From: a virus
Direction: 5' to 3' (one strand)
DNA: 32,875 bases
Virus record (IMG/VR): IMGVR_UViG_3300036768_001376
Span: 1-32,875 of that record
Each line of letters begins with the position of its first letter. Position 1 is the first letter of the stretch. The notes beneath the pieces were generated by a model. The model worked only from the letters and a program-made list of their open reading frames with translations. It was not told the DNA's origin and did not search any database. This document shows positions 2,509 to 28,057 of this stretch, piece by piece. The translations under genes were made by a program, and so were the position numbers.

Positions 2509-2763
2509 ATGAAGCCGCCGGGAAAACTCCCCAAGGGCACGTGCGCCCCCGTGCCGCTCGACTCGGATGTCGAGGAAATGGTCATGCGTCTATCGGCGCA
2601 ACTCGGCTGGCCGCTGGGGCGCACAGTCAATGCACTCTTACGCTGCACCATCGGCGGGGAGTTCGTGATGGAGGTGGAGATGGCGAAGCCCGCCCGGCTC
2701 GGTACCGAGGAAGGGCGCAAGTTAGTTCAATCCGCCCCGGCGAGGGCGAGATTCCGGCTATAG
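2509..2763 (+). CDS. Small protein with ribbon-helix-helix-like segment
   Basis: An 84-residue frame starts at ATG 2509, ten bases after the previous stop. The middle (PLDSDVEEMVMRLSAQLGWP, then GRTVNALLRCTI) has the strand, helix, turn, helix pattern of Arc/MetJ-type DNA-binding proteins, which is my best guess. No strong Shine-Dalgarno is visible. The last three codons (CGG CTA TAG) lie inside the first copy of a 178-bp repeat that starts at 2755. The original C-terminus may therefore have been replaced when the repeat-bearing cassette arrived. Confidence 0.55.
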   Translation: MKPPGKLPKGTCAPVPLDSDVEEMVMRLSAQLGWPLGRTVNALLRCTIGGEFVMEVEMAKPARLGTEEGRKLVQSAPARARFRL

Positions 2764-2932
2764 CAACCCTGCGAAAATCACACAATTTTGCAGTTTGTGT
2801 CGATTTCTTGTAATCTATTATATTAGAACGACTTACAGGCCAAAAAATTTTCAAAAATCCTCACTTTGGACTTGACTTTGACGGTCTATTATATTAGATT
2901 ATACACAGAAGTTGAGAGCAAAAGTCAAACAA
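2755..2932 (+). repeat. 178-bp direct repeat, copy 1 (cassette promoter region)
   Basis: The segment recurs at 3722-3899 without gaps and with about six substitutions (around 97% identity). It starts at CGGCTATAGC and ends at GTCAAACAA, just before the Shine-Dalgarno of the first cassette gene. It is much more AT-rich than the flanking virion genes and has two copies of the 14-mer TCTATTATATTAGA, 71 bases apart. Its left edge supplies the stop codon of the upstream gene. Confidence 0.93.
2814..2906 (+). promoter_or_regulatory. Probable promoter/operator module of cassette 1
   Basis: The 14-mer TCTATTATATTAGA lies at 2814-2827 and 2885-2898. Upstream of the second copy, TTGACT (2872-2877) is followed after 17 bp by TAGATT (2895-2900); TTGACG (2878-2883) with TATACA 16 bp on is an alternative. 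The 14-mer is nearly self-complementary (TCTA...TAGA), as expected for a dimeric repressor site. Transcription would enter the gene at 2957, which has an excellent AAAGGAGG. Which hexamers are used cannot be settled by reading. Confidence 0.5.
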
Positions 2933-2956
2933 AAAAACAAAACAAAGGAGGTTACA

Positions 2957-3142
2957 ATGACACGAGTAACGGAAGAGTGGAAGAATGAAGTCAACGAATA
3001 CAGATCAGATGTCCCGACGGTCACAGAAGAGGAACTTGTAGAATTATTCGTTGACTACGTTTGCATTGACGAGAAGAATCACATCTTCCGTCATGATGCT
3101 GAGCAAAAAGAGTACATTCATCAATTGTTTGCACAACACTAA
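2957..3142 (+). CDS. Acidic 61-residue protein, first gene of cassette 1
   Basis: I choose ATG 2957 because AAAGGAGG precedes it by seven bases; an in-frame ATG at 2912 lies within the promoter repeat and has no such site. The protein is small, acidic and helical (TEEWKNEVNEYRSD, TEEELVELFVDYVC) with one cysteine and no recognised motif. It occupies the same slot behind the promoter repeat as the 86-residue protein at 3924, but the two sequences are not obviously related. The first-gene slot therefore seems variable while the surrounding repeat is conserved. Function unknown. Confidence 0.7.
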   Translation: MTRVTEEWKNEVNEYRSDVPTVTEEELVELFVDYVCIDEKNHIFRHDAEQKEYIHQLFAQH

Positions 3143-3166
3143 CTCAAAACACTAAAGGAGGATGCA

Positions 3167-3360
3167 ATGACACGAGAACAACTGAAAAGCCGGAATGAAA
3201 TAAGAACAAAAAGCCTTTGGCGCATCGTATCCTAGAGATATTGCAACTGCGTTCAGGCCGGCTTTTCGATTACTAAGAACGAAGCGAGATGCTTGAATGT
3301 GTTGAGCGTTTCCTGCACGACATGCTATACAGAAGTCCAGAACACAGCGAAAGAATGTAA
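3167..3360 (+). pseudogene. Decayed copy of the gene at 4240-4476
   Basis: Starting ATGACACGAGAACAACTGAA after a perfect AAAGGAGG, this segment matches the intact gene at 4240-4476 almost base for base but lacks 43 internal bases. The missing part is bounded in the intact gene by two AAATA pentamers, of which one remains here, so the loss looks like a slippage or short-repeat deletion. It shifts the frame. Point changes also alter TCGTAG to TCCTAG and turn a TAC codon into TAA. The ribosome-binding site has survived while the product is lost. Confidence 0.9.
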
Positions 3361-3368
3361 ACTAACCC

Positions 3369-3421
3369 AAGCGCCAAGCTGCCCGCGCACGAGTGGCGGC
3401 AAAATGAGAAAGGGTACTACA
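3369..3421 (+). promoter_or_regulatory. Conserved hairpin leader, copy 1 of 3
   Basis: About 53 bases before the start at 3422 match the leaders at 4186-4239 and 4485-4538. The shared core is AAGCGCCAA, then GCCCGCGCA, then GAGTGGCGGC, then AAAGGGTAC directly before the start. GCTGCC and GGCGGC can pair (with one G-U) around an 11-base loop, placing a hairpin just upstream of the AAAGGG ribosome-binding site. A translational control element is possible. The leader is non-coding between two genes. Confidence 0.6.
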
Positions 3422-3679
3422 ATGACATTCTACAAGTTGATGAATCGAGATGGATGGCAAACGAAGATCGGCTACGATGGGAAGCAAACGCATCTGTATG
3501 CTGTACTGGTTGACAAAGACCAGTACGGCGTGGTCGGCGCCGACGGATATATCTTTGAATCTATTTTCCTATCCAACCGCGGCGATGGTAGCTACATCAT
3601 TCCTGCTACGAGAGTGCCAAGTGCTGTGCGAATAGCGTGGGATGCAGCGGCTGCGTATGAAGAGAGGGCCAGGGAATGA
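3422..3679 (+). CDS. Unknown 85-residue protein of cassette 1
   Basis: ATG 3422 follows AAAGGG at a good distance; an in-frame ATG six codons earlier (MRKGTT) is less well placed. The product alternates charged turns and short hydrophobic strands (THLYAVLVDKDQYGVVGADG) and ends in an alanine/glutamate helix (DAAAAYEERARE), consistent with a small beta sheet plus one helix. It holds the same position as the 75-residue gene at 4539, after the same hairpin leader and overlapping an HTH start codon (ATGA). The two proteins share little sequence, so this looks like another exchangeable slot. No family recognised. Confidence 0.7.
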   Translation: MTFYKLMNRDGWQTKIGYDGKQTHLYAVLVDKDQYGVVGADGYIFESIFLSNRGDGSYIIPATRVPSAVRIAWDAAAAYEERARE

Positions 3680-3780
3680 AAGACGTTTTGAAATCCATCG
3701 GTGCGCAGGCGCAAAGCCCTGCGGCTATAGCAACCCTGCGAAAATCACACAAATTTGCAGTTTGTGTCGATTTCTTCTAA
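3676..3780 (+). pseudogene. Truncated copy of the cassette HTH gene
   Basis: Codons 1-16 (MKDVLKSIGAQAQSP) clearly match the start of the intact HTH protein at 4763 (MKDILKHIGAQVRSL). The frame then runs into the second 178-bp repeat at 3722 and ends at TAA 3778-3780 after 34 codons. The whole helix-turn-helix is missing. The break point coincides with the left edge of the repeat, so this is the junction of the tandem duplication. A 34-residue peptide could still be made, because its ATG overlaps the stop of the previous gene. Confidence 0.85.
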
Positions 3781-3899
3781 TCTATTATATTAGAACGACT
3801 TACAGGGCAAAAAATTTTCAAAAATCCTCACTTTGGACTTGACTTTGGCGGTCTATTATATTAGATTATATGCAGAAGTTGAGAGCAAAAGTCAAACAA
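3722..3899 (+). repeat. 178-bp direct repeat, copy 2
   Basis: This is the second copy of 2755-2932, without indels and with about six substitutions. It interrupts the truncated HTH gene and drives the second cassette. In this copy, ACACAAA and TTTGTGT (around 3748-3768) form a perfect 7-bp inverted repeat. TTCTAAT (3775-3781) and ATTAGAA (3789-3795) form another, which is imperfect in copy 1. Confidence 0.93.
3775..3871 (+). promoter_or_regulatory. Probable promoter/operator module of cassette 2
   Basis: The 14-mer TCTATTATATTAGA occurs at 3781-3794 and 3852-3865, 71 bases apart as in copy 1. The first copy lies within a perfect inverted repeat, TTCTAAT with ATTAGAA. A TTGACT 17 bp before TAGATT is conserved from copy 1. 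The next gene starts at 3924 behind AAAGGAGG. The likely regulator is a dimeric DNA-binding protein, perhaps the HTH product at 4763, but that link is inferred. Confidence 0.5.
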
Positions 3900-3923
3900 T
3901 TCAAACAAAAGGAGGTTACAGTA

Positions 3924-4184
3924 ATGAACGAAGTCATAGTTGCAGTTCAGAATTTCGATGTCAATGACGTAGTTGCTGAAGAACTGCGTCGTGGGAAAAT
4001 CGCAGAAACAGTTAAAGGCAAAACAGCATTTTGTAAAGTGCCAGAGAGTTTTGCAAAAGAGCGCGATTTGACGATTGTGCACACGATTTCAAGAGAGAAA
4101 TATGACACACTTGATGAGTTTGATAAAGACCTCGTATTCACAACAAAAGAAGGTTTGTATTTTACGACTTTTGAATCTTTGTAA
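3924..4184 (+). CDS. Unknown 86-residue protein, first gene of cassette 2
   Basis: ATG 3924 is chosen because AAAGGAGG lies nine bases upstream; the in-frame ATG at 3870 is inside the promoter repeat. The product is strand-rich and charged (MNEVIVAVQNFDVNDVVAEE at the start, then DLVFTTKEGLYFTTFESL at the end). It has no signal peptide or membrane segment and one cysteine. It is not similar to the protein in the matching slot of cassette 1 (2957). Such size and placement suit phage accessory proteins such as inhibitors of host functions, but nothing in the sequence identifies a target. Confidence 0.75.
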   Translation: MNEVIVAVQNFDVNDVVAEELRRGKIAETVKGKTAFCKVPESFAKERDLTIVHTISREKYDTLDEFDKDLVFTTKEGLYFTTFESL

Positions 4185-4185
4185 T

Positions 4186-4239
4186 AAGCGCCAAGCCGCC
4201 CGCGCATGAGAGGCAGCAACAATAAAAAAGGGTACAGCA
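4186..4239 (+). promoter_or_regulatory. Conserved hairpin leader, copy 2 of 3
   Basis: This non-coding segment shares AAGCGCCAAGC, GCCCGCGCA and AAAGGGTAC with the leaders at 3369 and 4485. GCCGCC and GGCAGC can pair with one mismatch around an 11-base loop. It precedes the intact gene at 4240, whereas the decayed homologue at 3167 has a plain AAAGGAGG leader instead, so leader and gene have been shuffled relative to one another. Confidence 0.6.
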
Positions 4240-4476
4240 ATGACACGAGAACAACTGAAAAGCCGGAATGAAATAGCTTCAGCCTTTCGCAAGGCCGAAG
4301 TTGAAACCTTAGCAAATAAGAACAAAAAGCCTTTGGCGCATCGTATCGTAGAGATATTGCAACTGCGTTCAGGCCGGCTTTTCGATTACTACGAACGAAG
4401 CGAGATGCTTGAATGTGTTGAGCGTTTCCTGCACGATATGCTATACAGGAGTCCAGAACACAGCGAAAGAATGTGA
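4240..4476 (+). CDS. Unknown 78-residue helical protein (intact paralogue of 3167-3360)
   Basis: Starting at ATG 4240 after AAAGGG, the product is mostly alpha helical and basic in its first half (MTREQLKSRNEIASAFRKAE, KNKKPLAHRIVEILQLRSGR). A second acidic/aromatic half follows (FDYYERSEMLECVERFLHDM). Two amphipathic helices of this sort suggest a small protein-binding or nucleic-acid-binding bundle; no family is recognised. A 43-bp-deleted copy lies one cassette upstream, so the gene was duplicated and only one copy kept. Confidence 0.75.
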   Translation: MTREQLKSRNEIASAFRKAEVETLANKNKKPLAHRIVEILQLRSGRLFDYYERSEMLECVERFLHDMLYRSPEHSERM

Positions 4477-4484
4477 ACTAACCC

Positions 4485-4538
4485 AAGCGCCAACCCGCCC
4501 GCGCACGAGTGGCGGCAACAATGAGAAAGGGTACAACA
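4485..4538 (+). promoter_or_regulatory. Conserved hairpin leader, copy 3 of 3
   Basis: Same arrangement as the leaders at 3369 and 4186: AAGCGCCAA, CCGCC pairing with GGCGG around CGCGCACGAGT, then AGAAAGGGTAC before the ATG. The loop and the ribosome-binding region are the best conserved parts, and the stem keeps at least five pairs. Confidence 0.6.
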
Positions 4539-4766
4539 ATGACATATAAAGAGTTCCGCTCAGAGGGCAAAGTTTTCGACATTACGAAAACGCACATTCT
4601 GCTTGAAGATATGCACGGAGAGGTGCACCATATTCCACTTCGCAACGTTACAGCATGGGAACGTGGAGAGTTTACTTCCGATGATGATTTTCTCAGCGCT
4701 ATCTGGCAAGACGTTATTACATCGAGCGATTGCGCTGCATATTTGCCGGAATCGGGAAAATCATGA
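4539..4766 (+). CDS. Unknown 75-residue acidic protein preceding the HTH gene
   Basis: ATG 4539 lies at a normal distance from AAAGGG; an in-frame ATG at 4521 (MRKGTT) is the alternative. The first half has alternating strand residues (KVFDITKTHILLEDMHGEVH, then HIPLRNVTAW), like a small SH3-like or barrel fold, and the C-terminal half is acidic and helical (SDDDFLSAIWQD). Its stop overlaps the start of an XRE-type HTH gene (ATGA). A short gene coupled to a downstream HTH gene resembles some toxin-antitoxin or anti-repressor pairs, but no toxin motif is visible. Confidence 0.75.
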   Translation: MTYKEFRSEGKVFDITKTHILLEDMHGEVHHIPLRNVTAWERGEFTSDDDFLSAIWQDVITSSDCAAYLPESGKS

Positions 4767-7442: not shown

Positions 7443-7886
7443 ATGAAGACCCTGATTCTCATTCTCGCATGCCTCGCGCTGCCGCTGACGGCCTTTGCTC
7501 AGGTGAGTTTGAATGAGTACAGCGTCAAATCCGGCGCATCGTACGCCAACAGCCAGAAGGACACGACGGCGGTGTTACGGCTTGCGGGCGCATCGCTGCT
7601 CAGTGCAAAGCTCGTCACGAAAGACACAGCCGCCGTGGACGTGTACATCCAGTACAGCGCCAACTATTACGACGTACCCGCTGCGCAACGGACATGGACA
7701 ACTGTTGTAACTGACTCGCTGGTTTATGCAAACACCGGTTACGGCTTTGCGCAGTATTCAATCCGTGATACGGATAGTGATGCACTCGACGGCGTGACAG
7801 GTGCTATAAGGACCGTGCTGGCTTTCCGCTCATCAGGCAACGGTGTAACAACGCCGACATACACACTGTCGTATGTCTTCCGCTGA
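7443..7886 (+). CDS. Exported protein with Sec signal peptide, between portal and capsid genes
   Basis: I choose ATG 7443, with AAAGGA upstream; an in-frame GTG at 7428 would only add five residues. Residues 1-20 (MKTLILILACLALPLTAFAQ) are a textbook Sec signal peptide with an AFA|Q cleavage site. The mature part of about 127 residues is serine/threonine-rich and beta-like (SAKLVTKDTAAVDVYIQYS), resembling a small beta sandwich. A secretory signal on a gene lodged between portal and protease-capsid is odd, since head proteins assemble in the cytoplasm. It may be an envelope protein altering the host surface, or a decoration protein carrying an unexpected leader. Family not recognised. Confidence 0.8.
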   Translation: MKTLILILACLALPLTAFAQVSLNEYSVKSGASYANSQKDTTAVLRLAGASLLSAKLVTKDTAAVDVYIQYSANYYDVPAAQRTWTTVVTDSLVYANTGYGFAQYSIRDTDSDALDGVTGAIRTVLAFRSSGNGVTTPTYTLSYVFR

Positions 7887-7898
7887 GAGGATGATGCA

Positions 7899-9944
7899 AT
7901 GATGACAAGTAAAGATATTCAAACCCTGATCGAGCGCTTCGGCGGGCAACGTATTGCGCTGCGAACCGTCGAACGAGCCGATCCGGCGACATGGAATGAC
8001 AAGGACATGTCCGTCGAGGCAATCCTCACGACCGAAAAGCCTGCGGATGTATGGGACTGGGAGCGCTGGGACGTTGTGCCGGAGGTGCTGCGCATGGACG
8101 GCATGATTCTCCCCGAGGGCCGCGACCAGGTCCCGCTGCTCGACACGCACTCACGCTATTCCATTAGCGACCAGTTCGGTAGTGTGCGCATGTTCAGCAA
8201 TGCGGTTGTTTCCGGCTACGCTGCGAAGAAGGCACGCTTCTTCTTCGCCTCGACCCAGGATGCGCAAGACGCTGCCACGAAAGTGAAGGAGGGGCACGTC
8301 ACTGACAACAGCGTCGGCTATGAAGTGTTGGCATCGACGTGGATTGCGCCGGGGGCGAGCATGGAGATTGGCGGCAAGGTCTATAACGGCGGCGAGCGAG
8401 GGTTGCGAGTCACGACGCAGTGGAAGCTGAAAGAGGTGAGCCTCTGTCCCATCGGCGCCGATGAGCTTGCGACTATCCGCGCAGAAGCGAAGCACCACAA
8501 GCGCGATATGATGGACTGCCCTGAATGTGGAATGCAAACACCCGCAGATGGCAACTACTGTGCCTCGTGCGGAAAGGAAATCAAGCGTGCGGCATGGGAT
8601 ACCGCATCGCCTGATCCGACTATCACAATCAAACATCAACAACCAGGAGAACCAACGATGGAACCCACCAAGGAGCAACTCACGGATCAGGAGAAAGCTG
8701 CGGTCCGTGAAGCTGAATACAATCGCATTCGCGAGATCGGCGAGTGGAAGACGCGCTTCGTAGGTCAGATCGAAAACGTTGACCAACTGGCGACGGAAGC
8801 GATCAAAAGCGGCATGAGCGTATCCGAGTTCAAAGGGACGCTGGCCGAGAAGATGGCCGAGAAAGGCAAGGCATTGCAAACGCCGCAGAGCGCACTTGGA
8901 CTCACGGAGAAAGAACAGAAGCGTTACTCGATTCTGCGCGCCATCCGGCATCTGCTCTATCAGCGTGACAAGCAGTTCGCTGACATGAAGGTGGATGCGA
9001 GCTTCGAGATTGAATGCTCGAACGAGATTGCCGCACGCCTCGGCATTGCGCCGAAAGGCATCCTCGTACCCTACGAAATGCAACCGGGCATGACGAACGC
9101 GGCTCGTGCACAACGAGATGCGACGGTTGGTAATGCGAGCAACGCGGGTGCGCTGGTCGGTACGACGCTGATGGCAAGCGAGTTCATCGAGGTCCGCCGC
9201 AATGTGTACCTGGCGGACAAGGTCGGTGTGCGCGTCCTGAGCGGCCTTGTCGGCAACGTCGACTTCCCTAAGCAGACCGCAGAAGGGACGGCAACGTGGG
9301 TAGGTGAGCAGGTTGCAGCGGCTGAGACCAATATCACGGTTGGTAAAGTGAGTCTCACACCGAAGACGGTCTCGGCATTCTACGACTATAGCCGCAAGCT
9401 GCTGCTCCAGTCCACGCCGAGCATTGACCAGTTGATCAATCAGGACCTCGATCAGCGATTGAGGCTTGCCATTGACAAGTCCATCTTCCACGGCACTGGC
9501 GGCGATCAACCGACTGGTATCGAAAATACGTCCGGCGTCGGCAACGTCGTTGGGGCGGGCTTGACATGGCAGAAGGTGATCGAGTTCCGCACGGACGTCG
9601 CTGTGGCAAACTCATTGAGCGGGAGTCTCTCATTCGTCACTGACCCGGTGACGTTCGGAACGCTCATGGGGCGACCGAAGGCAACCGGGTACCCGGTGTA
9701 CCTGATCAATGACAATGGACAGATGATCAGCTATCCGGTGTATGATTCCAATCAAATCACCAGCGGCTATCTCTTCTTCGGCGATGGCTCGCAAGTGCTG
9801 CTTGGCGAGTGGGGCGTGCTCGATATCCTGCCCGATCCGTACACCGCCTCGACCAAGGGCGACATTCGTGTCGTTGGCTTCAAGAGCGTGGACGTCGCAC
9901 TGCGCCATGCGGGTGCATGGTCCTTTGCGAATGACGTGTCATGA
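7899..9944 (+). CDS. Fused prohead protease, zinc ribbon and HK97-fold major capsid protein
   Basis: The 681 residues form three parts. Residues 1-200 match S78-type prohead proteases: histidine H84 in LLDTHSRYS, serine S138 in HVTDNSVGYEV, then VSLCPIGAD. Residues 207-224 are a zinc ribbon (C207, C210, C221, C224). After a charged helical scaffold-like stretch (about 254-340) comes an HK97-fold capsid domain, with typical segments such as ATWVGEQVAAAETNITVGKV, LTPKTVSAFYDYSRKLL and ending DIRVVGFKSVDVALRHAGA. Protease-capsid fusions are known in some phages; the protease would cut the capsid part free. An in-frame ATG at 8658 behind AGGAGA could also yield scaffold plus capsid without protease. 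RBS for the full product: GAGAGGATG before 7899. Confidence 0.92.
   Translation: MMTSKDIQTLIERFGGQRIALRTVERADPATWNDKDMSVEAILTTEKPADVWDWERWDVVPEVLRMDGMILPEGRDQVPLLDTHSRYSISDQFGSVRMFSNAVVSGYAAKKARFFFASTQDAQDAATKVKEGHVTDNSVGYEVLASTWIAPGASMEIGGKVYNGGERGLRVTTQWKLKEVSLCPIGADELATIRAEAKHHKRDMMDCPECGMQTPADGNYCASCGKEIKRAAWDTASPDPTITIKHQQPGEPTMEPTKEQLTDQEKAAVREAEYNRIREIGEWKTRFVGQIENVDQLATEAIKSGMSVSEFKGTLAEKMAEKGKALQTPQSALGLTEKEQKRYSILRAIRHLLYQRDKQFADMKVDASFEIECSNEIAARLGIAPKGILVPYEMQPGMTNAARAQRDATVGNASNAGALVGTTLMASEFIEVRRNVYLADKVGVRVLSGLVGNVDFPKQTAEGTATWVGEQVAAAETNITVGKVSLTPKTVSAFYDYSRKLLLQSTPSIDQLINQDLDQRLRLAIDKSIFHGTGGDQPTGIENTSGVGNVVGAGLTWQKVIEFRTDVAVANSLSGSLSFVTDPVTFGTLMGRPKATGYPVYLINDNGQMISYPVYDSNQITSGYLFFGDGSQVLLGEWGVLDILPDPYTASTKGDIRVVGFKSVDVALRHAGAWSFANDVS
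8645..8660 (+). promoter_or_regulatory. Internal ribosome-binding site and in-frame start in the capsid fusion
   Basis: AGGAGA (8645-8650) lies eight bases before ATG 8658, which is codon 254 of the fused gene and in the same frame. Initiation here would give a 428-residue product starting MEPTKEQLTDQEKAA, exactly at the boundary between the zinc ribbon and the scaffold-like helix. The layout is like lambda C/Nu3, where a nested start supplies scaffold in excess. Confidence 0.7.
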
Positions 9945-18833: not shown

Positions 18834-21752
18834 ATGCAATTTACCCCGACAGCGCAGTTCCTGGCCTTCGCGCGTGGAGCGATAAAATCTCTGATCTGGA
18901 AAGTGTTTGTCCGGAAAACGGCAACACTGGGCGCTGCACTCGATACGACCGATTGGCTCGAAGTAACACATTTTGTGCACACGGAGAGCATGCAGGTGCA
19001 GAAGTCATCCATTGAGTATGAATACGGCATGTTTGTCAGCGATTCAGTCTCATTTGTCGTGTCCGACATAGAGTGGTGGAAGTCGCACGTCTTCAACGCA
19101 ACGGAGTCGGAATACATTGAGTGCAAGATTCAATGTCAGTTGGCTGCCTGGGGAATAACCGCGCCGGATATTGCCTACACATTTTCTGGGATCATTGACA
19201 AGCAATATCAGCCGCGAGAGTCATCGGACACCATCACAATTACGGCTTACACAGCACAGGATATAGGGCAGCAGATTTCAGCGGATTATCTTACGACGCA
19301 ATATCTCAACAGCAGCGAAACCATGCTTGTGTTGCAAAACATTCCCGGTCTTTATGTCAAGAACGCTGCTGTCGCAGGCAAGGAACTGAACGTCGGGACC
19401 CACCGGATCAACTATCGGACGAAGTTGGTGACACAAGGTTATCCGGCAAGTAACGAACTCATCGAAAACGGCACCTTTGACAATGATCTTGGTTGGGCAT
19501 TAGGAAACGGTTGGTCAATTTCTGGCAACAAAGCACATTGTGATACTGGAGTAGCATCAGAACTGCGGCAATATGTACGTCTCGATGCGGGCGCAACGTA
19601 CAAAGTTACATTTACGCTCAGCAACGTTACAGCCGGAGCCATCAGGCCTATCCTCCAAGGAACACTCGGCACGTCGCGAACAACGAACGGAACCTTCACG
19701 GAGAACATTGTTGCAGGATCAACGGGCACGATGGGCCTGGCGTTTAGAACAACCGCAAATTCATTCGTGGGGAAAGTTTCTGCAGTATCACTGACGCGCG
19801 TGAATACGCAGGTACAAGTTTTGGTCCGCGAAGCACAACTCGATGATGGGCGTTGGGTTGAATTAGCCGTCGGCGACAATACGCTGGGCAATGGCACGAG
19901 CGAAGATTCGGACACAGAACGGCTGGTCGTTCATATTGATGACCTCAATGAGGTTCCTCCACGCAATCCACCGCGACCGAACGAACCATTTGAACTTGAG
20001 CGCAGCGATGCGATTGTTGTTATCACGAAGGGCGACACACTTCCGAGGCAATGGTATGCAAATGCCGGTGCGCAATTCATCTTAAGCGAAATTCTCAACA
20101 GACTGGGGATAACACAACAAACGTTTGACACACTCGAAATGCCGACCGCAACGGGTGCACGCAAGATTTCATTCGTTGACAATCCCCCGAACGGCTCGGT
20201 AACGGGCACCAAGTACGCGCTGCTGACGGTTGGCAATGATCTGTGGGTAACCGTCGGTCATCGGCTATACAAACGCTCTGCCGGAGTGTACACATTGATG
20301 GCAACTCTCAGCCCCGGCGATGTGATTTCCAAATTGATGTACAACCAGCGCAATGGCCACATCTGGATATTTTATGGAGCAAATGCGAACGGCAACGGCA
20401 AATTGCGTCGCTATGTGATCGCCACATCGACGTTGAGCAGCGAAATCGTGCTGAGCAGCACTGCGGACAAGACGCGGCACATGAGTATCGAGCTTGTCGA
20501 TTATGAGTACGAGGCTGACGCATTCATGTATGCCGTCGTGTACACGGTGACGACCAACGGTCTGAACGGCGGGACAATTTCTCAGGTCAATGGTAATACG
20601 CTCGCTGTGAGTACCATATTCACGGGCCTCAATCTGGGGTATCCAGACAATTTTGGGATCACCTCTCAGTTCATGCACCAACTCAGTGGCGGCAAGGTGC
20701 GGTTCCGAACGAATAACGGCATCAATCCATACTATCACGAAATCCAGGTGGACGTTACTGGCGCATGGCAAGATAATGGTCAACAATTTCAGGTTGCATA
20801 CGATTACGACACGGCGGCGTTTGTTGCATCTGAGAATCGCATCTACGCATGGAACCCCGTTGAGCGACAAATTGAATCGCACACGACTTCATCAGGAACA
20901 CGTACGATCAACCTACTCGACGTATCATCATCGGCGGCCATAGGGGCAATGCGTGCGCTCAACAACAAAGTCTATTTTACGCTGTACGACGTCGATCCGC
21001 TCATAGCGGGCCGGTACTTCTATTTCTATGAGTTCAGCAACAATGAGGTCCACAACTTTCAGGATTATCCTGAAAAATCCAATGCAGCAGCGGCCCTTTT
21101 CACGGCCCTCACGAATGTTGGCAACAGAATCTACGGCATCGATTTCGAGGGCCGTCTGTTTCAATTCGACTCGATGATTGCTCTATATGCGCCACGCATA
21201 GAAACAACTGGGAAAACACTGACCGACATCTGGAACGATGTTTTGAAGTCATTCTTGCTGTGCGGGACAATTTCACCTGCAAAGCGAGCGCACATTTATC
21301 GCCGGGTGAACGCTGACGGACTTCCGCAGACGAGCGGTCAATCGGTATCGCTTACGGTAGACGATGCCACAGACATCATCATTGATGAGCTTCTCTACAG
21401 AAAACGAAATTTCATTGATGTGTCGAATGAAACCGTTCGTTTCACCTTCGATGGCATTGACTACAACATTGAAGCACTTGACGATGTGCCGCGTTTCACG
21501 CTGACGAGCAAACTCATTCCTGATGAGATTGTGCAAGACTTGGCATTCAATGCGTATCAATTCTTCAAAACGAATCGTTCTCTCTATCGCATTCCAATCG
21601 GCATGATGCCCTTATTGCAGTATGAACCTTTCGACGGAGCGCAGGTAACATTCACTACTACGAAGCTCAAGAAGATGGCGTCCGGTCTCATCATGGGCAT
21701 CGAGATTAGCATCGACGGGGCAATGACATTCAGTATTCTTTTACCATCGTGA
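18834..21752 (+). CDS. Tail hub/tip protein with inserted adhesive domains (972 aa)
   Basis: The start at ATG 18834 lies just after the tape measure stop; ATG 18830 opens another, short frame. Residues 1-200 and about 790-972 look like the hub domains of siphophage tail tips (SFVVSDIEWWKSHVFNATES; DEIVQDLAFNAYQFFKTNRS, VTFTTTKLKKMASGLIMGIE). Between them lie two probable insertions. Residues 206-323 resemble a carbohydrate-binding jelly roll (NELIENGTFDNDLGWALGNG, then QYVRLDAGATYKVTFTLSNV). Residues 445-782 resemble a beta propeller with repeated blades (GTKYALLTVGNDLWVTVGHR; NQRNGHIWIFYG; GNRIYGIDFEGRLFQFDS). The protein probably seals the tail tube and contacts the receptor. Confidence 0.8.
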   Translation: MQFTPTAQFLAFARGAIKSLIWKVFVRKTATLGAALDTTDWLEVTHFVHTESMQVQKSSIEYEYGMFVSDSVSFVVSDIEWWKSHVFNATESEYIECKIQCQLAAWGITAPDIAYTFSGIIDKQYQPRESSDTITITAYTAQDIGQQISADYLTTQYLNSSETMLVLQNIPGLYVKNAAVAGKELNVGTHRINYRTKLVTQGYPASNELIENGTFDNDLGWALGNGWSISGNKAHCDTGVASELRQYVRLDAGATYKVTFTLSNVTAGAIRPILQGTLGTSRTTNGTFTENIVAGSTGTMGLAFRTTANSFVGKVSAVSLTRVNTQVQVLVREAQLDDGRWVELAVGDNTLGNGTSEDSDTERLVVHIDDLNEVPPRNPPRPNEPFELERSDAIVVITKGDTLPRQWYANAGAQFILSEILNRLGITQQTFDTLEMPTATGARKISFVDNPPNGSVTGTKYALLTVGNDLWVTVGHRLYKRSAGVYTLMATLSPGDVISKLMYNQRNGHIWIFYGANANGNGKLRRYVIATSTLSSEIVLSSTADKTRHMSIELVDYEYEADAFMYAVVYTVTTNGLNGGTISQVNGNTLAVSTIFTGLNLGYPDNFGITSQFMHQLSGGKVRFRTNNGINPYYHEIQVDVTGAWQDNGQQFQVAYDYDTAAFVASENRIYAWNPVERQIESHTTSSGTRTINLLDVSSSAAIGAMRALNNKVYFTLYDVDPLIAGRYFYFYEFSNNEVHNFQDYPEKSNAAAALFTALTNVGNRIYGIDFEGRLFQFDSMIALYAPRIETTGKTLTDIWNDVLKSFLLCGTISPAKRAHIYRRVNADGLPQTSGQSVSLTVDDATDIIIDELLYRKRNFIDVSNETVRFTFDGIDYNIEALDDVPRFTLTSKLIPDEIVQDLAFNAYQFFKTNRSLYRIPIGMMPLLQYEPFDGAQVTFTTTKLKKMASGLIMGIEISIDGAMTFSILLPS

Positions 21753-21760
21753 GAAGACTA

Positions 21761-22096
21761 ATGGAAACGCTGCTCGAAAAGCAAATTCGCTTCACGCAGA
21801 TGGTCGGGTTGCTCATCGACTATGCAACGCAGAAAGGCTACGGCATCACGCTGGGCGAAGCGTGGCGTCCGCCGCTGCTGGCGAAAATCTACGCGGAGAA
21901 AGGGATTGGGAGCGAGAAGTCGCTGCACTGCGACCGCCTCGCAATCGACTTGAATCTCTTCAAGAACGGCAGATACCTCGACAAGACGGAGGATCACCGC
22001 GAGCTGGGCGAGTTCTGGGAAAGTATAGGCGGCACATGGGGCGGGCGGTTCAAGGATGGAAATCACTACTCACTTGAGTATGAGGGCCGGAAGTGA
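21761..22096 (+). CDS. Endolysin, M15-family (VanY/L-Ala-D-Glu type) peptidase
   Basis: This zinc peptidase cuts peptidoglycan stem peptides at lysis. From ATG 21761 it has 111 residues, typical for single-domain phage M15 endolysins. Zinc ligands fit SLHCDRLAIDLNL (H56, D63) and GNHYSLE (H102); the arginine motif GEAWRP (R36) precedes them. There is no signal peptide, so it needs a holin to reach the wall; candidates lie at 22946 and 26432. It sits between two tail genes, not in a separate lysis block. GTG 21749, overlapping the hub stop, is the alternative start. Confidence 0.9.
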   Translation: METLLEKQIRFTQMVGLLIDYATQKGYGITLGEAWRPPLLAKIYAEKGIGSEKSLHCDRLAIDLNLFKNGRYLDKTEDHRELGEFWESIGGTWGGRFKDGNHYSLEYEGRK

Positions 22097-22917
22097 ATCT
22101 CACGTTCTATATACCGAATCTCAGAAACGCTGCATACATCGCCGGCGGCGGATTTACGGAGGATGCAAACTATCCGCTCGTGAACTTGTTCAATGGCATT
22201 CCGGAGATTCCAGCGAAGAGCACCGTGCTGACGAGCGGGCAGCGCATCGTGTTCGATCAGGGTGCGGCAAAGGCATTCGACTCGTTCGTGCTTTTGAATC
22301 ACAATTTCACAACGAACAATGGCTTGAGGGTTCGCTGCGCCTCGAACAGCGCAATCACGACGGATGTGGAGACCGTCTTTGCAACGGCAACTCCACAAGC
22401 TGACGGCGATCTGATCATTGACGACATTCCGACGTTTACGAAACGCTACGTTGCTTTTGAGTGGATGGGCGCTGGACCATTGGCCGCTGTTCCAACGTTG
22501 GGCGGCGCCTACGTGTGTGCGAAGTACGTTTTCCCAAAGCCGTGGGAATTTTCCTCACGGCCATTTTACGTCGGTTTTGGGACTTCACGCAGTCGTTCGC
22601 TCAGCGGCATCCGGCGCGCTGCGCAGCAATATGGCGGCACGGCACGATTTCAGTTCAGCTTCCTGAATCTCGAGGACGCTGACAGGGATATGCTGCAGCG
22701 CATCTACACGCTCGTGCGTGGACCGCTCATTCCATTCATGTGTCGGGATCATACGGGCGCACAGTACTACGTTTCATTCGTCAACGATGAGTGGCCGTGG
22801 ACAGTCCGTGCATACAATCTGAACGACATGGAGCCGCTGGTACTCGAAACAGTGCGTTCCAGCTACGGCATAACGTCCGGCATGGAGAATACAGAGGAAG
22901 TCATCGCTTACATCTAA
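22093..22917 (+). CDS. Tail tip / minor tail protein (274 aa)
   Basis: GTG 22093 overlaps the endolysin stop (GTGA). The first half has a galactose-binding-like jelly-roll pattern (ANYPLVNLFNGIPEIPAKST, KAFDSFVLLNHNFTTNNGLR, FTKRYVAFEWMG). The second half is aromatic and mixed (FSFLNLEDADRDMLQRIYTL, then IPFMCRDHTGAQYYVSF) and ends in WTVRAYNLNDMEPLVLETV, a pattern seen in tail-tip proteins. The late tail position suggests a distal tail or baseplate component. Exact family uncertain. Confidence 0.65.
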   Translation: MNLTFYIPNLRNAAYIAGGGFTEDANYPLVNLFNGIPEIPAKSTVLTSGQRIVFDQGAAKAFDSFVLLNHNFTTNNGLRVRCASNSAITTDVETVFATATPQADGDLIIDDIPTFTKRYVAFEWMGAGPLAAVPTLGGAYVCAKYVFPKPWEFSSRPFYVGFGTSRSRSLSGIRRAAQQYGGTARFQFSFLNLEDADRDMLQRIYTLVRGPLIPFMCRDHTGAQYYVSFVNDEWPWTVRAYNLNDMEPLVLETVRSSYGITSGMENTEEVIAYI

Positions 22918-22945
22918 CAAACTGCTTCGGGGGGAGCAAAGAACA

Positions 22946-23185
22946 ATGCACACATTCATCGGTATCGCACACATATTCTTGCAGAACAGTTTACCGCCGC
23001 CGCCGATCAATTGGCTGTACACGGGCCTGCTCGGTCTCATTGCGATTCTTCTTGGCATTATCGGCTGGCTGCTGAAATCCGCCTACGCGGACATGAAGGA
23101 ATGGCGTTTGGAAACCGACAAATGGATTCGCACGCTGGATACGCGTCTTGTGCGAATCGAAACGAAGCTGGAGATTCAGGAATGA
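22946..23185 (+). CDS. Holin or holin-accessory candidate, one membrane helix
   Basis: GGGGGGAG precedes ATG 22946. Residues 22-44 form a strong transmembrane helix (NWLYTGLLGLIAILLGIIGW). A basic/acidic amphipathic helix follows (DMKEWRLETDKWIRTLDTRL, VRIETKLEIQE), a layout seen in phage holins and in inner-membrane spanin-like proteins. The next gene, an exported protein, overlaps by ATGA. With the endolysin two genes upstream, a lysis role is likely; holin versus i-spanin cannot be decided. Confidence 0.65.
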   Translation: MHTFIGIAHIFLQNSLPPPPINWLYTGLLGLIAILLGIIGWLLKSAYADMKEWRLETDKWIRTLDTRLVRIETKLEIQE

Positions 23186-23592
23186 AGATGCTGATTGCAC
23201 TGATGGTGATTCTGCTTTCAGTCGAATGCAGAGCGCAGATCGAGGACAAAGACCCCATCGAGCAATGGAAGAAATGTCCCGAAGGTGCGCCACTGCCGAC
23301 GCTCGATCATCACCTCGGCAAGATTGCCGGCAGCATAGCGCTCTATAGCACGCTGCGCGTAGCGGGCGTGCGAGATTGGACGGCCTTGGGCATCACCTCG
23401 GCTGCGGGCATTGCATTCGAGGCGGTGCAATATCTTTTCTTCGGCGAAACGCTGAATCACTCGCTGATGGATGTGGTGCTGTTCAACTATCACTTGCCTA
23501 TGCATGCATTTACGCGCGGGGAAGCGCTAACGGGAATAGGCATCACAGTGAATCTGACAGGCTTGTACTTGTATTTTCTGACACGGGAGTAG
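23182..23592 (+). CDS. Exported or membrane protein with signal peptide (136 aa)
   Basis: ATG 23182 overlaps the previous stop. Residues 1-19 (MKMLIALMVILLSVECRAQ) look like a Sec signal peptide. The mature part has histidine-rich DHHLGKIAGSIALYSTLRVA and three hydrophobic stretches (about 47-60, 68-90, 112-133), with HSLMDVVLFN between the last two. The Asp-His...Gly...Asp spacing recalls YfiM/DUF2279 or VanZ-like small membrane proteins, but identity is low and I would not assign a family. Next to a holin candidate it may assist lysis or alter the envelope. The cysteine at residue 16 lacks a good lipobox. Confidence 0.6.
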   Translation: MKMLIALMVILLSVECRAQIEDKDPIEQWKKCPEGAPLPTLDHHLGKIAGSIALYSTLRVAGVRDWTALGITSAAGIAFEAVQYLFFGETLNHSLMDVVLFNYHLPMHAFTRGEALTGIGITVNLTGLYLYFLTRE

Positions 23593-23595
23593 TCA

Positions 23596-25815
23596 ATGAA
23601 GCGCACATGGATTTTGTTCTTGTTGATGTTTTCATTCGTGCTCGGCAACGCACAGACGACACAATACTTCGAGGTCGTCTTGCTACGGACCAATGGCACA
23701 CCACTAACGGGCGCCACGGCATGGCTGGTTCCCGTGGCAAACGTCTATCCAAACAACCGTCTTGCGCTGACGGCACATCCTCAGAAGCTGGGAGTGTACT
23801 ACCGCAACGCAGTCCCGGTTGGTCTCTACGACATTTGGGTGGACCAAGCGCACTACAATCCGCCCGGAGCGACGGTTGTGAGCGGTTATGTGAAGAATAG
23901 AGATAGCGTGGCAATCGGTGGAGCCGGGACGGTGGTAACGCACAACTACTATGGCTTCGCTGCGGATGAAGTGACAACGACGCTGAATCATGATTCCACT
24001 ATCAGTGTAAAGGACGGTGGCATCACTTGGGAGAAACTCGCCTCGCCCGTTGCGGACACAACTACACTCAAATCGACCAATGCTGATGTGGCGATACTGA
24101 AGACGGTCGTATCAGGCAAAGAAATCGGCGGCGGTATGTTCGTAAAGATTGATTCAACATATCCTGAGGGTGTTGTTGCGTTCAAACATCCGGTTACAGG
24201 TAAACAGTGGGTTCGGGAAGAATATCTTCAAACCGGAGCAGTCAACGTAAGATGGGCTGGGGCTATAGGTGACGGGCTAAATAATGACTACGTGGCAATA
24301 AAACGAGCATATCGTTCTCTTCAAACAACAGGGCTTATGACAGCAAGCGGAGAGCCAGAACGCTATGGAATTCTTTTTTTTCCCCCGGGGACCTTCATTA
24401 TAGATAGCACGCTTCGCATTTCTGGCGGCGTAACTCTTGTTGGTAGCCCTGGATTTAGAAGAACTATAATCAAGTTCAAGGATGCTATCGCAACCACTCA
24501 GGAAATTTTTATTGTTGATACTGACATGCGCCTCATCAATGGCGAACCATTTGCCAATGCTACATTTGGTATTTCAATTCGGGATATGAGTTTCATTGGT
24601 AATAGTCTAACTAATCCAATGATAAGTGGGGTTAGATTGCTGAGCGCACAATTAACCAGCTTAGATAGAGTTAACATAGCGGAAATGGGTTTGCGCGGAC
24701 TGGTTGTAGGTGATAGCTTGCAGTCTTATGCGTCATCAATCACTATTACTTCTCTATGGATAGCTGATTGCATCAAGGGTCCAGGACTCGAAATAATCGA
24801 AGCAAGTTCATTTGTAGCTTTGAACCTTTCCGTCGAGCATGTGAATATGAATGGTTCTTATCTGGGGGCTGATGGAGACAAAAATCCAGCAATGCTCATT
24901 AGAAATTCCTCTAATATCCACATCAGTCATTTCCAAGATGAAAATTCTTATTTACCAATCAAAATCAAAAATTCACAAAATGTTTTCTTTACTGCCATTT
25001 CTCAACATTGGTGGTACTCTACACCTATCCCTGTTGCAATCAAAATAGTAAATTCATCTCAGGTTTCAATTGAAAGAATGCACATGATGAATGCCGATAC
25101 GTTATTGTCACACCCAGATAAATCAATCTTCTTGTTGGGCGGAGTGGGGATTTTTTTTGAAACTTATCCACTAATAGCGCAAGGGAATGTTGGCATAGGA
25201 ATGGTAAGAGCAACAAAAACCTTGCAAGTGGCTGGGACTGCTGGCATAACTGGCAATTTGTACTTGGGCCCTGGACTTAATGCTTACATCGGCCAAGGCG
25301 CCGATCCAACCAATTCTATCGCCATTTACTCTTTCCGACCAGATGGTATTAGTGGCGCTCAAAAATGGGAACTCTCATTGGGTGGTGCTGGGTCTGCCCT
25401 TAATCCATCAACAACCATTTCTTCGTCGAATACAGATAATACAAATTCCTATACTTACATAAAATTGGGTCGTGCTATGGGCGGGCCTTACACCGGGTAC
25501 AATATTCTATTAGACCCTGATGGCACGACTGGAGTCTTCGTCGGCAATAACCTAAAAGTGCAGGGCAATGTCTATTTGAATTCTGATCTAGTTGGCAATG
25601 ATCTTATCGCTGGGACTTCTTTTTTTTCAGGAACCGATACATTGAAGGTGATCACCATTTCTGGCGGGACGCTGAATGATATTTACACTGCTAATTCAAT
25701 TGGCAATGCTGTAGAAGCTTTGAGTTGCACAGCTATCACAAATGGCGTTGAAGTCCGACGCCGATCAGGTGGTGTCAGTGGACTAAGTTTCACATATCAG
25801 AGAATCAAGAGATAA
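23596..25815 (+). CDS. Tailspike/tail fibre with beta-helix, carrying a signal peptide (739 aa)
   Basis: Residues 1-19 (MKRTWILFLLMFSFVLGNA) are a clear Sec signal peptide, unusual for a virion protein. Residues 20-105 form a beta domain. Near residue 215 NVRWAGAIGDGLNNDYVAIK is the entry motif of pectate-lyase-type right-handed beta-helices used as polysaccharide-binding or -cleaving tailspikes. Short repeating rungs follow to about 510 (SNIHISHFQDENSYLPIKIK, NSQNVFFTAIS). From about 531, GNVGIGMVRATKTLQVAG begins a terminal domain of the kind found in FCB-group fibres. From about 24240 on the base composition falls sharply (30% G+C at 24901-24960). It probably determines host range. Confidence 0.8.
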   Translation: MKRTWILFLLMFSFVLGNAQTTQYFEVVLLRTNGTPLTGATAWLVPVANVYPNNRLALTAHPQKLGVYYRNAVPVGLYDIWVDQAHYNPPGATVVSGYVKNRDSVAIGGAGTVVTHNYYGFAADEVTTTLNHDSTISVKDGGITWEKLASPVADTTTLKSTNADVAILKTVVSGKEIGGGMFVKIDSTYPEGVVAFKHPVTGKQWVREEYLQTGAVNVRWAGAIGDGLNNDYVAIKRAYRSLQTTGLMTASGEPERYGILFFPPGTFIIDSTLRISGGVTLVGSPGFRRTIIKFKDAIATTQEIFIVDTDMRLINGEPFANATFGISIRDMSFIGNSLTNPMISGVRLLSAQLTSLDRVNIAEMGLRGLVVGDSLQSYASSITITSLWIADCIKGPGLEIIEASSFVALNLSVEHVNMNGSYLGADGDKNPAMLIRNSSNIHISHFQDENSYLPIKIKNSQNVFFTAISQHWWYSTPIPVAIKIVNSSQVSIERMHMMNADTLLSHPDKSIFLLGGVGIFFETYPLIAQGNVGIGMVRATKTLQVAGTAGITGNLYLGPGLNAYIGQGADPTNSIAIYSFRPDGISGAQKWELSLGGAGSALNPSTTISSSNTDNTNSYTYIKLGRAMGGPYTGYNILLDPDGTTGVFVGNNLKVQGNVYLNSDLVGNDLIAGTSFFSGTDTLKVITISGGTLNDIYTANSIGNAVEALSCTAITNGVEVRRRSGGVSGLSFTYQRIKR

Positions 25816-25851
25816 AAGTTCACAACCCACAAACTATACAAGGAGGGAAAT

Positions 25852-26406
25852 ATGAAACGCACATTGTTGTTGGTCGTAGCGCTCATGATCGTAGCGACAA
25901 TCAGCGAGGCGCAATTCCGGCAGAACATCATCACGAAGCAAGTCTTCGCACCACGTGGCCAACGCGTGACCGCTGCCGAGACAACGTACGTCGGAACATT
26001 CTCGGCGTATCTTGGCTTCTTGGCATTCTACGGAACCAATCTGCCAACATTCTACGACGGCGTGATCAATGTCCGTCGTGGATTCGAGGACGGAAGCTAC
26101 TTGAACATTTTCCTTACGCTGCCCGAGGAGATCAACGCCAATCAAGTATACGGTCTCGCATACGGAAAGATGCTGAGCCAACCGATGGAAGCGACGTGGC
26201 TCTTTCTCAATGCCGGCACATTGTTCAGCAAGTCAAACGATCCGGCGAGAAGAAACTACATCGGTATCCCAGTCGGCCTCGAGGTGAAGTACGATTTCAC
26301 TGACTTTGCTGCAATAGCACTTCGCGCTGATGTGATGCCCGCGTATGACTTCCATGAGTTCGGTCTTGCGGCGATTGGCCAAGCGAGTTTGAGCATTTCA
26401 CCATAA
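25852..26406 (+). CDS. Exported, probably outer-membrane beta-barrel-like protein
   Basis: AAGGAGGG precedes ATG 25852. Residues 1-20 (MKRTLLLVVALMIVATISEA) are a Sec signal peptide with cleavage before QF. The mature 164 residues alternate strand-like segments with turns (YLNIFLTLPEEINANQVYGL, ATWLFLNAGTLFSKSNDPAR, IGIPVGLEVKYDFTDFAAIA) and end in AAIGQASLSISP, resembling a small porin-like barrel. A phage gene for an outer-membrane protein after the tailspike suits lysogenic conversion or superinfection exclusion, by masking or replacing the receptor. That role is inference. Base composition is back to the phage norm. Confidence 0.7.
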   Translation: MKRTLLLVVALMIVATISEAQFRQNIITKQVFAPRGQRVTAAETTYVGTFSAYLGFLAFYGTNLPTFYDGVINVRRGFEDGSYLNIFLTLPEEINANQVYGLAYGKMLSQPMEATWLFLNAGTLFSKSNDPARRNYIGIPVGLEVKYDFTDFAAIALRADVMPAYDFHEFGLAAIGQASLSISP

Positions 26407-26431
26407 CTAAAACAACAGAAAGGATACAATC

Positions 26432-26656
26432 ATGACGTGGTACGAGAAGGTTTGGAACTGGCTCAACGGCAACAAGATCGAGTTCGGTCTTGTCTTGGGC
26501 TGGATTGCATCAAAAATTCCGCCATCGATTCCGCTGTTTGGTCTCGAATGGCTCAGCTGGAAGGAAGTCCTTGAAGCACTCGCAGGCGTGCTCACCGGCG
26601 TAGGCGTTGTGCATCGTGTAATGAAGTCAACGACCGATCCAGGCCCAAACAAATAG
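26432..26656 (+). CDS. Holin-like small membrane protein (74 aa)
   Basis: AGAAAGGATACAATC precedes ATG 26432. The protein has a tryptophan-rich amphipathic start (MTWYEKVWNWLNGNKIEFGL) and two hydrophobic segments (LVLGWIASKIPPSIPLFGL; VLEALAGVLTGVGVVHRVM). It ends in a charged tail. This matches small class II-type holins and it is the last gene before the terminator. The other holin candidate is at 22946; a holin/antiholin pair is possible. Confidence 0.68.
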   Translation: MTWYEKVWNWLNGNKIEFGLVLGWIASKIPPSIPLFGLEWLSWKEVLEALAGVLTGVGVVHRVMKSTTDPGPNK

Positions 26657-26712
26657 CAACCCCACCGGACAGACTCCCCAACGTCCGCACCAACCCACCA
26701 CCATCCACACGA

Positions 26713-26747
26713 AACGGCTGAGTTGAGCGCCTCAGCCGTTTTTTTTT
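26713..26747 (+). terminator. Rho-independent terminator ending the late operon
   Basis: AACGGCTGAG (26713-26722) pairs perfectly with CTCAGCCGTT (26731-26740) around an eight-base loop, followed by seven more T. Strong terminator for plus-strand late transcription, placed immediately before the tRNA gene. Confidence 0.95.
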
Positions 26748-26748
26748 G

Positions 26749-26822
26749 TCGGGGCGGAGGGATTTGAACCCTCGACCTCACGGTCCCGAACCGTGCGCGC
26801 TACCGGACTGCGCTACGCCCCG
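26749..26822 (-). tRNA. tRNA-Pro, anticodon CGG
   Basis: On the minus strand a full cloverleaf forms: acceptor CGGGGCG/CGCCCCG, D stem GCGC/GCGC, anticodon stem CACGG/CCGTG with loop TTCGGGA (anticodon CGG), variable loop AGGTC, T stem GAGGG/CCCTC with TTCAAAT, and discriminator A at 26749. The C1-G72 pair and A73 are the identity marks of bacterial proline tRNAs. CCA is not encoded. The 5' side faces the integrase, 195 bases away, so the gene lies inside the phage, probably as part of attP. Confidence 0.95.
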
Positions 26823-26829
26823 TCACCAA

Positions 26830-27016: not shown

Positions 27017-28057
27017 TCATGCGGCGCTTTTGGGCGGCTTGGGCAGACGAAGTTTCTTTGCGGCCTTACGTACCTCAGCTTTGAAAGGATTCACATAGCG
27101 CTTGGTGCTTTCAGCGTCATGATGGCCGAGGAACTCTTTGATCGTCCAGAGATCCGCGCCTTGCTGTGCAAGTGCGGTGGCCGCCGTGTGTCGGGCGCCG
27201 TGCAGCTTGATGGTCGCCGGGAGTTTTAATCGCTCACGCAGACGGGCGAAGCGACGCGTAAGAGCATCAGGCGATCTATTGATCAACATATCATCGCCTC
27301 GTTGTTGCGCTCTGGCGATGAGTCGTTGGATGATTGGCCGAAGTTGCGGAGTTATGTAGACGATTTTATCACCGCCTTCCTTTTCATCATGCACGGTGAT
27401 CTCGCCGCGCTGCACGTCAACATGCTCACTGATGCGAATCGCTGTTCCCTCACCACGGCGTACGCCCGACAAAAAGTAGAAGTTGAGTATGTCCAAAAAT
27501 TCCTGGTCGCCAATACCCTGAATCAGTCGTAGGTATTCCTGGGGCTTGATGTCACGAGGTTTGCGCTTCTCACGCTTGGGTAATTCGTAGTGCTGCAGTG
27601 GGTTTGAGACGGCATAGCGTTTTGCAACTGCCCATGCGAAAAGTGACTTGAGTGCGGAGAGTTCATTTCGGATTGTTTTTGGCGCACGACCTGCCTCGCG
27701 ACGTTCACGCTCGAAGTTTTCAACATGCGCAGTTGTGATGTCTTCAACGAACTCATCACGCCCCAGAGATTTCCCAAAATTGTTGAAGGCATGCACGAGC
27801 GCTATAATGGTATCGCTTTTGCGTCCCTTTGTTTTTTTGAAATCCAAATACTGAGACACCAACAAGCTGTAAGTGATGCGCTGCATGACACGATTCGACA
27901 AACCGAATTGCGCCAGCGTCAGGTCGTTGTTTTCTTTCGCGAGAATCGCTTCTGCAACACGACGGTCCTTTGTGCGGAGAGATCGGCGAGGTAGGCCGAG
28001 GGCCTTGCGGTACTTGATGTACCATGTACCATTCCGATTGATGAGCCAGCAATTCAT
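27017..28057 (-). CDS. int: Tyrosine recombinase (phage integrase)
   Basis: This enzyme joins attP to attB through a 3'-phosphotyrosyl intermediate and with helper proteins reverses the reaction. The 346 residues show an N-terminal arm-binding part, a SAM-like core-binding domain (about 60-150) and the catalytic domain: R200 in LSGVRRGEG, a lysine around 225-231, H286-x-x-R289 in LHGARH, H312 in LGHHDAE and Y321 in KRYVNP. All expected residues are present. It is transcribed leftwards towards the tRNA-Pro and the 20-bp repeats. Upstream, on the same strand, a small membrane zinc-ribbon gene ends 18 bases before its start, so the two may be co-transcribed. Confidence 0.95.
   Translation of the reverse strand: MNCWLINRNGTWYIKYRKALGLPRRSLRTKDRRVAEAILAKENNDLTLAQFGLSNRVMQRITYSLLVSQYLDFKKTKGRKSDTIIALVHAFNNFGKSLGRDEFVEDITTAHVENFERERREAGRAPKTIRNELSALKSLFAWAVAKRYAVSNPLQHYELPKREKRKPRDIKPQEYLRLIQGIGDQEFLDILNFYFLSGVRRGEGTAIRISEHVDVQRGEITVHDEKEGGDKIVYITPQLRPIIQRLIARAQQRGDDMLINRSPDALTRRFARLRERLKLPATIKLHGARHTAATALAQQGADLWTIKEFLGHHDAESTKRYVNPFKAEVRKAAKKLRLPKPPKSAA

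Follow-up and report, generated by a model that had tools for sequence, protein, structure and literature searches.

Phage tails are normally assembled in the cytoplasm, and tail spikes are taught as products of that assembly. A spike with an export signal, encoded at a normal tail-gene position, calls into question the rule that tail parts are assembled exclusively within the cell. The receptor-binding proteins of phages are known to be modular, with a native N-terminus joined to an exchanged specificity part (PMC8262889). A tailspike-like fold has been described in an exported protein of Pantoea stewartii, WceF, a β-helix trimer that carries a Tat signal and cleaves the exopolysaccharide of its own producer (PMC7949094). 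In Bacteroidetes, Gln follows the signal cleavage site, a pattern termed the Q-rule (PMC5837995), and P. gingivalis prophages, which use tRNA-Pro as their insertion site, contain five genes with Q-rule signals, the function of which is unknown (PMC10367356).

The window, which is the whole stretch of DNA analyzed here, is an entire virus record of 32,875 bases from a virus of bacteria. It encodes a GpA-type terminase, a lambda-type portal, a protease-capsid fusion, a neck protein, a tape measure, a 972-aa hub, an M15 endolysin, and an integrase (27017-28057), and the phage is temperate. Searches of viral contigs revealed no close relatives of the spike, its N-terminal module, the capsid, or the terminase, and no close protein relatives were found in phages or plasmids; the best identity in a terminase alignment scan was 33%. 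The protease-capsid fusion (7899-9944) has a zinc-ribbon-like CPEC...CASC motif between its protease and capsid parts. In the small-ORF region after the terminase (2755-4545), stretches of 205 and 178 nt are duplicated about 1 kb apart with 97% identity. The tail hub (18834-21752) contains a carbohydrate-binding-like domain at residues 203-323, also present in Rhodobacter phage central fibres, L190, and L192.

The spike gene (23596-25815, plus strand) is a complete ORF encoding 739 aa, and its coordinates and translation were confirmed. The ATG at 23596 is preceded by a GGGAG Shine-Dalgarno sequence and stands shortly after the stop codon of the upstream ORF (TAG, 23590-23592). The next in-frame ATG is found only at about residue 181, and the sole near alternative start seen, TTG at residue 29, has a weak GAGG. 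The initial annotation had described a β-helix tailspike-type protein with a Sec signal, and we confirmed this description, as a textbook signal peptide is followed by a PF12708 domain. The gene comprises the following parts.

23596-23652, plus strand: Sec/SPI signal peptide, residues 1-19 (MKRTWILFLLMFSFVLGNA), called by our own n/h/c rule, with predicted cleavage before Gln20.
23653-24147, plus strand: N-terminal domain, residues 20-184, with a phage-native GC3 of 0.62 and of no known family, defined by base composition and family searches.
24148-25155, plus strand: tailspike-type neck and right-handed parallel β-helix, residues ~185-520, with a foreign GC3 of ~0.35, defined by PF12708, a change point, and a structural model.
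25156-25812, plus strand: C-terminal region of foreign base composition, containing a single fibre motif of the NVGIG type (GNVGIGMVRATKTLQVAG) and ending in a small domain.

Signal calls throughout were rule-based and used a home-made n/h/c scorer with a bonus for Gln at +1. Residues 1-19 of the spike consist of a basic n-region (Lys/Arg), a 13-residue hydrophobic core (WILFLLMFSFVLG), and the site G-N-A^Q, consistent with a Q-rule Sec/SPI signal in its n-, h-, and c-regions, its A-X-A-type site, and Gln at +1. Cysteine enrichment was rejected as a sign of export; the level did not differ from that of signal-less spikes, and just 2 Cys occur in the spike of the window.

PF12708 matched residues 216-365 of the spike (E 6.2e-14; 52.7 bits versus a cut-off of 27). 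This region has the AxGDG...D..AI entry motif of the tailspike parallel β-helix, and the invariant columns of the helix, to which many phage spikes align, are common to 33 phage spikes. From approximately residue 167 onward, the protein is similar to tailspikes of Acinetobacter phages (E 3e-5 and 6e-4). AF2 modelling of residues 161-520, for which these 33 spikes were supplied (34 sequences in total), yielded a parallel β-helix with a pLDDT of 71.5 and a pTM of 0.72; its structural matches (VIA Z 23.8-28.4) were phi29 gp12, the CBA120, Sf6, and HK620 tailspikes, alginate epimerases, and lyases. The full-length spike run as a single sequence gave a pLDDT of 35 and was discarded. Because the matches to the model include tailspikes, epimerases, and lyases, the predicted fold represents a carbohydrate-active architecture that does not point to a specific substrate.

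The GC3 of the spike gene was 0.62 in codons 1-184 and 0.36 afterwards. Placing a change point at codon 184 gave a log-likelihood gain of 20.2, compared to at most 8.0 in 500 shuffles, and no 184-codon stretch with GC3 below 0.47 was present in seven other structural or tail genes of the window. The exchange point coincides with the tailspike neck. The step in GC3 therefore places the signal on a native module, with the N-terminal domain being the phage's own and the specificity module an import, the arrangement known from ordinary receptor-binding proteins. The N-terminal domain had no match to a known virion-anchor family in Pfam or phages, no homologues in the viral contigs, phages, or plasmids searched, and one weak match to a tail protein in the PDB (E 0.31). 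Its assignment as a PLAGGK-type anchor was not supported (hhalign probability of 0.4%).

The protein has the canonical modularity of a tailspike, and one reading is that it is an ordinary virion part put together in the cytoplasm, as is normal for tails; its N-terminal hydrophobic stretch could then be inert, poorly recognized, or bypassed (e.g., by initiation at the TTG of residue 29). We regard this explanation as improbable, since the ATG has a good Shine-Dalgarno sequence and no further ATG until residue ~181, and the N-terminus has the charge, core, and A-X-A^Q type site of a signal, with the same Gln pattern in each of the four exported proteins of the window. Furthermore, the 118 ORFs with an NVGIGT motif among the matches listed (~101 with a visible start) contained no convincing signal and one spurious call, which argues against fibre composition as the source of the spike's signal. 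The conflict between export and cytoplasmic virion assembly, raised in the initial annotation, is judged to be real.

The signal rule flagged 4 of 27 window genes, namely the spike gene and the three listed below.

7443-7886, plus strand: exported 147-aa protein (TAFA^QVSLN) between the portal and protease-capsid genes, called by the signal rule and with its neighbours identified.
23182-23592, plus strand: exported 136-aa protein (ECRA^QIEDK), the start of which overlaps the previous stop, called by the signal rule.
25852-26406, plus strand: exported 184-aa protein (ISEA^QFRQN), called by the signal rule and outer-membrane barrel-like by eye only.

These three genes had been named earlier as encoding exported proteins of the late region, and the suggested theme of envelope targeting holds, given that all four proteins pass the rule. 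Each of the four places Gln at the predicted +1 position. The 136-aa protein possesses a HHLGKIAGSIALYS...NHSLMD pattern that by eye is similar to small periplasmic VanZ/YfiM-like proteins, without a family match. The 184-aa protein had neither a family match nor a convincing match in the PDB. For comparison, 1.5% of random sequences of the same composition passed the signal rule. A signal together with Gln at +1 was found in 0.44% of 3190 ORFs from other viral loci, a survey that is a sample and whose signal frequencies apply to the matches listed; the same count in the window was 3 of 41 ORFs (binomial P ~8e-4), or 4 when ORF 23182 is read from an internal start. The Gln pattern calls for caution, because scoring without the Gln bonus recovered the Gln site for two of the four window proteins (23182 and 23596) and gave Gln at +1 in 8 of 62 signal-like background ORFs. 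The Gln assignments of 7443 and 25852 rest on the reading of their AFA^Q and SEA^Q sites. The signal call on the spike is independent of this pattern.

The region surrounding the spike gene includes the following additional features.

21749-22096, plus strand: M15-type peptidase, likely the endolysin (PF13539, E 7e-8; PHROG endolysin).
22946-23185, plus strand: small protein with one TM segment, holin-like by position and topology only, with no family match naming it.
26711-26742: strong terminator closing the late operon, with a 12-pair stem and a T run on the plus strand.

A consensus scan, which provides weak evidence, detected no promoter-like site on the strand of the spike gene within 21500-26656 and no convincing terminator between this gene and its neighbours. 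Together with the terminator at 26711-26742, the lack of an own-strand promoter-like site in this interval suggests that the exported proteins of the window are probably late lytic products. The inverted repeat of the terminator also follows a tRNA on the minus strand. This gene, a complete tRNA-Pro (CGG) at 26748-26822, lies beside the integrase gene, and 21-nt near-repeats occur at 26829 and 26996 between the two. The last 46 nt of the tRNA-Pro matched exactly only in two Chloroflexota MAGs; the full gene had no match in the host search, the window terminase had none in 301 Chloroflexota genomes, and the assignment of a Chloroflexota host from the 46-nt match was judged to be not conclusive.

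Another possibility is that the spike is a lysogenic-conversion surface protein (moron) shown on the host, akin to the surface protein of lysogens suggested in the initial annotation. The temperate nature of the phage with its integrase, the exported neighbours of the spike, and the precedent of the P. gingivalis prophages are all compatible with such a role, yet we consider it very improbable. The spike gene is embedded in a late operon that ends at the terminator, which argues against expression in lysogens, and the consensus scan showed no promoter and terminator of its own separate from that operon. In addition, NCBIfam and Pfam scans identified neither a T9SS C-terminal domain (CTD), the sorting domain of type IX secretion cargo, nor an autotransporter barrel on the spike, and a lipobox was not found. 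The suggestion of a lysogen surface protein is, therefore, poorly supported.

Signals on spikes were also encountered in other phages. Among the matches listed, 126 ORFs possessed the GDGxxDDxxAIQ pectate-lyase motif, with five flagged for a signal and four of these convincing; the resulting frequency for pectate-lyase spikes (4/~122) versus NVGIGT fibres (0/~101) is not significant alone (Fisher P 0.13). In contig L402, the signal is followed by a canonical 'YGKPLAGSKLCTYAAGTTTP' tailspike N-terminal domain, and the gene is located between a gp4-like gene (by eye) and the Hc3 head-closure gene (phrog_578, E 4e-71). The signal-bearing spikes of L401 and L307 are each encoded by the last gene of a P2-like tail operon and have the signal plus a ~95-aa module in common, with differing bodies, and that of L322 is encoded between a baseplate-assembly gene and a baseplate wedge gene. 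All four have Gln at +1, a residue that the scorer favours, and each is the only PF12708 protein on its contig; as these contigs are fragments, a further receptor-binding protein may lie elsewhere. The combination of signal and spike recurs in P22-like and P2-like phages that are unrelated, and in each case the gene occupies a canonical tail position.

Exported proteins were also observed near portal genes. A signal-bearing, 433-aa β-helix-like protein is encoded in L196 (2588-3889) between the terminase and portal genes, and the L402 phage has a second exported protein in the corresponding interval that shares no sequence homology with the near-portal protein of the window. Three unrelated phages encode an exported protein next to their portal gene (window 7443-7886, L421 7576-8391, and L196 2588-3889). 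The signal-bearing head-operon proteins of the window and of L421 showed no homology to each other, and the L421 protein has a tail-fibre-tip-like end domain by eye. Small exported proteins with a Q-rule signal followed immediately by a VGIGT- or VGIAT-type fibre motif occur in Flavobacterium phage FCL-2 (L005, 45363-45806), L132, L161, L179, and L185. Starting from a fibre-like gene with a signal in L354, the search reached two cultured phages, Burkholderia phage BcepC6B, where gp19 is annotated as 'tail fiber protein', and Xanthomonas phage PBR31, where orf35 is annotated as 'putative structural protein'. Both proteins combine a signal with a conserved ~50-residue stretch and a C-terminus of the tail-fibre type, and each gene is positioned between tailspike and holin genes; no mention of orf35 was found in the consulted passages of the PBR31 paper.

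The pairing of a signal-type N-terminus with a tailspike β-helix is a solid observation, and we propose the following mechanism to account for it. The protein would be a modular tailspike that binds or cleaves a receptor glycan, with a native N-terminal module that opens with a functional Sec signal. Translated late from the structural and lysis operon, it would be exported through Sec and cut by signal peptidase I after Ala19, and the resulting Gln20 would be cyclized to pyroglutamate in a Q-rule host. The spike would fold in the periplasm and presumably be retained, as the scans yielded no domain for export across the outer membrane. When the cell lyses, it would meet virions released from the cytoplasm and dock via residues 20-184, or alternatively act as a free glycan depolymerase on receptors and debris. 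Joining the particle after lysis and working as a secreted depolymerase had both been raised in the initial annotation, and both are kept here as candidate roles. On balance, we think it likely that the spike is exported and acts outside the cytoplasm, whether docked or free.

Docking at lysis is a tentative proposal. It is plausible because, in vitro, spike-less particles of phages such as P22 accept added spikes. Against it, the N-terminal domain appears to match no known virion anchor, and the 972-aa hub with its carbohydrate-binding-like domain is another candidate receptor-binding protein. A free exported glycan enzyme or decoy that never joins the particle is a similarly tentative branch of this explanation; in the periplasm and during lysis, it would trim or mask the polysaccharide that serves as receptor, thereby limiting superinfection or the trapping of progeny on debris. 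The location of the spike gene among three other genes for exported proteins and next to the lysis genes is consistent with this activity, as are the signal-bearing fibre-like proteins BcepC6B gp19 and PBR31 orf35. It is about equally reasonable because WceF, of similar length, is an exported tailspike fold that acts on exopolysaccharide (PMC7949094). However, the native 165-residue module after the signal is not obviously needed by a free enzyme, and the signals of L402, L401, L307, and L322 reside on the only PF12708 spike of each contig at canonical tail positions. We view the choice as roughly even with a slight lean toward docking, because 165 residues of native module follow the signal and because L402 retains the canonical tailspike N-terminal domain. 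The docking model could possibly extend to a recurrent Sec-export route in which spikes mature in the periplasm and load onto virions at lysis, a route that would have separate origins in siphovirus-like, P22-like, and P2-like phages and would perhaps include the exported portal-side proteins; we offer this generalization with reserve.

If some spikes are first exported, then lysis, receptor destruction, and virion completion would be coupled, and such spikes would not fit the customary view of virion components. The literature searched yielded no test of this coupling, and the open-access papers searched yielded no description of a general pattern of signal-bearing spikes, which has relatives in the cultured phages BcepC6B and PBR31. 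The Gln after the signal cleavage site also helps to assign orphan phages to Q-rule hosts.

Compared with described systems, the window spike is most like the PF12708 tailspikes (the Acinetobacter K-specific, Sf6, HK620, and CBA120 TSPs and phi29 gp12) in its β-helix, its modular swap, and the placement of its gene where the structural region ends; it differs in having a Sec signal and an N-terminal domain without detected kinship to known anchors. The proteins of L402, L401, L307, L322, and L196 are similar to it in combining a signal with a PF12708-type β-helix within phage structural operons, whereas their tail types are unrelated (P22-like and P2-like) and their N-terminal modules differ. 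WceF (PDB 6tgf) is likewise an exported, tailspike-like β-helix of ~740 aa, but it is encoded by a bacterial rather than a phage gene, located in an exopolysaccharide operon, and uses Tat instead of Sec. The P. gingivalis prophages (proposed Nixviridae) and the window phage both have genes fitted to the Q-rule Sec/SPI pathway, and tRNA-Pro, the insertion site of the former, is found beside the integrase of the latter; in contrast, the prophage Q-rule proteins were reported with unknown function and not as tailspikes. BcepC6B gp19 and PBR31 orf35 have in common with the window spike a signal peptide together with a C-terminus of tail-fibre type, and their genes adjoin those for a tailspike and a holin, yet they are 269-357 aa long, lack a β-helix match, and have Leu or Phe at the predicted +1 position. 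In these two phages, unlike the window phage, a separate, signal-less tailspike adjoins the signal-bearing protein; the exported fibre-like protein may thus be an extra, and a non-virion role is favoured for it.
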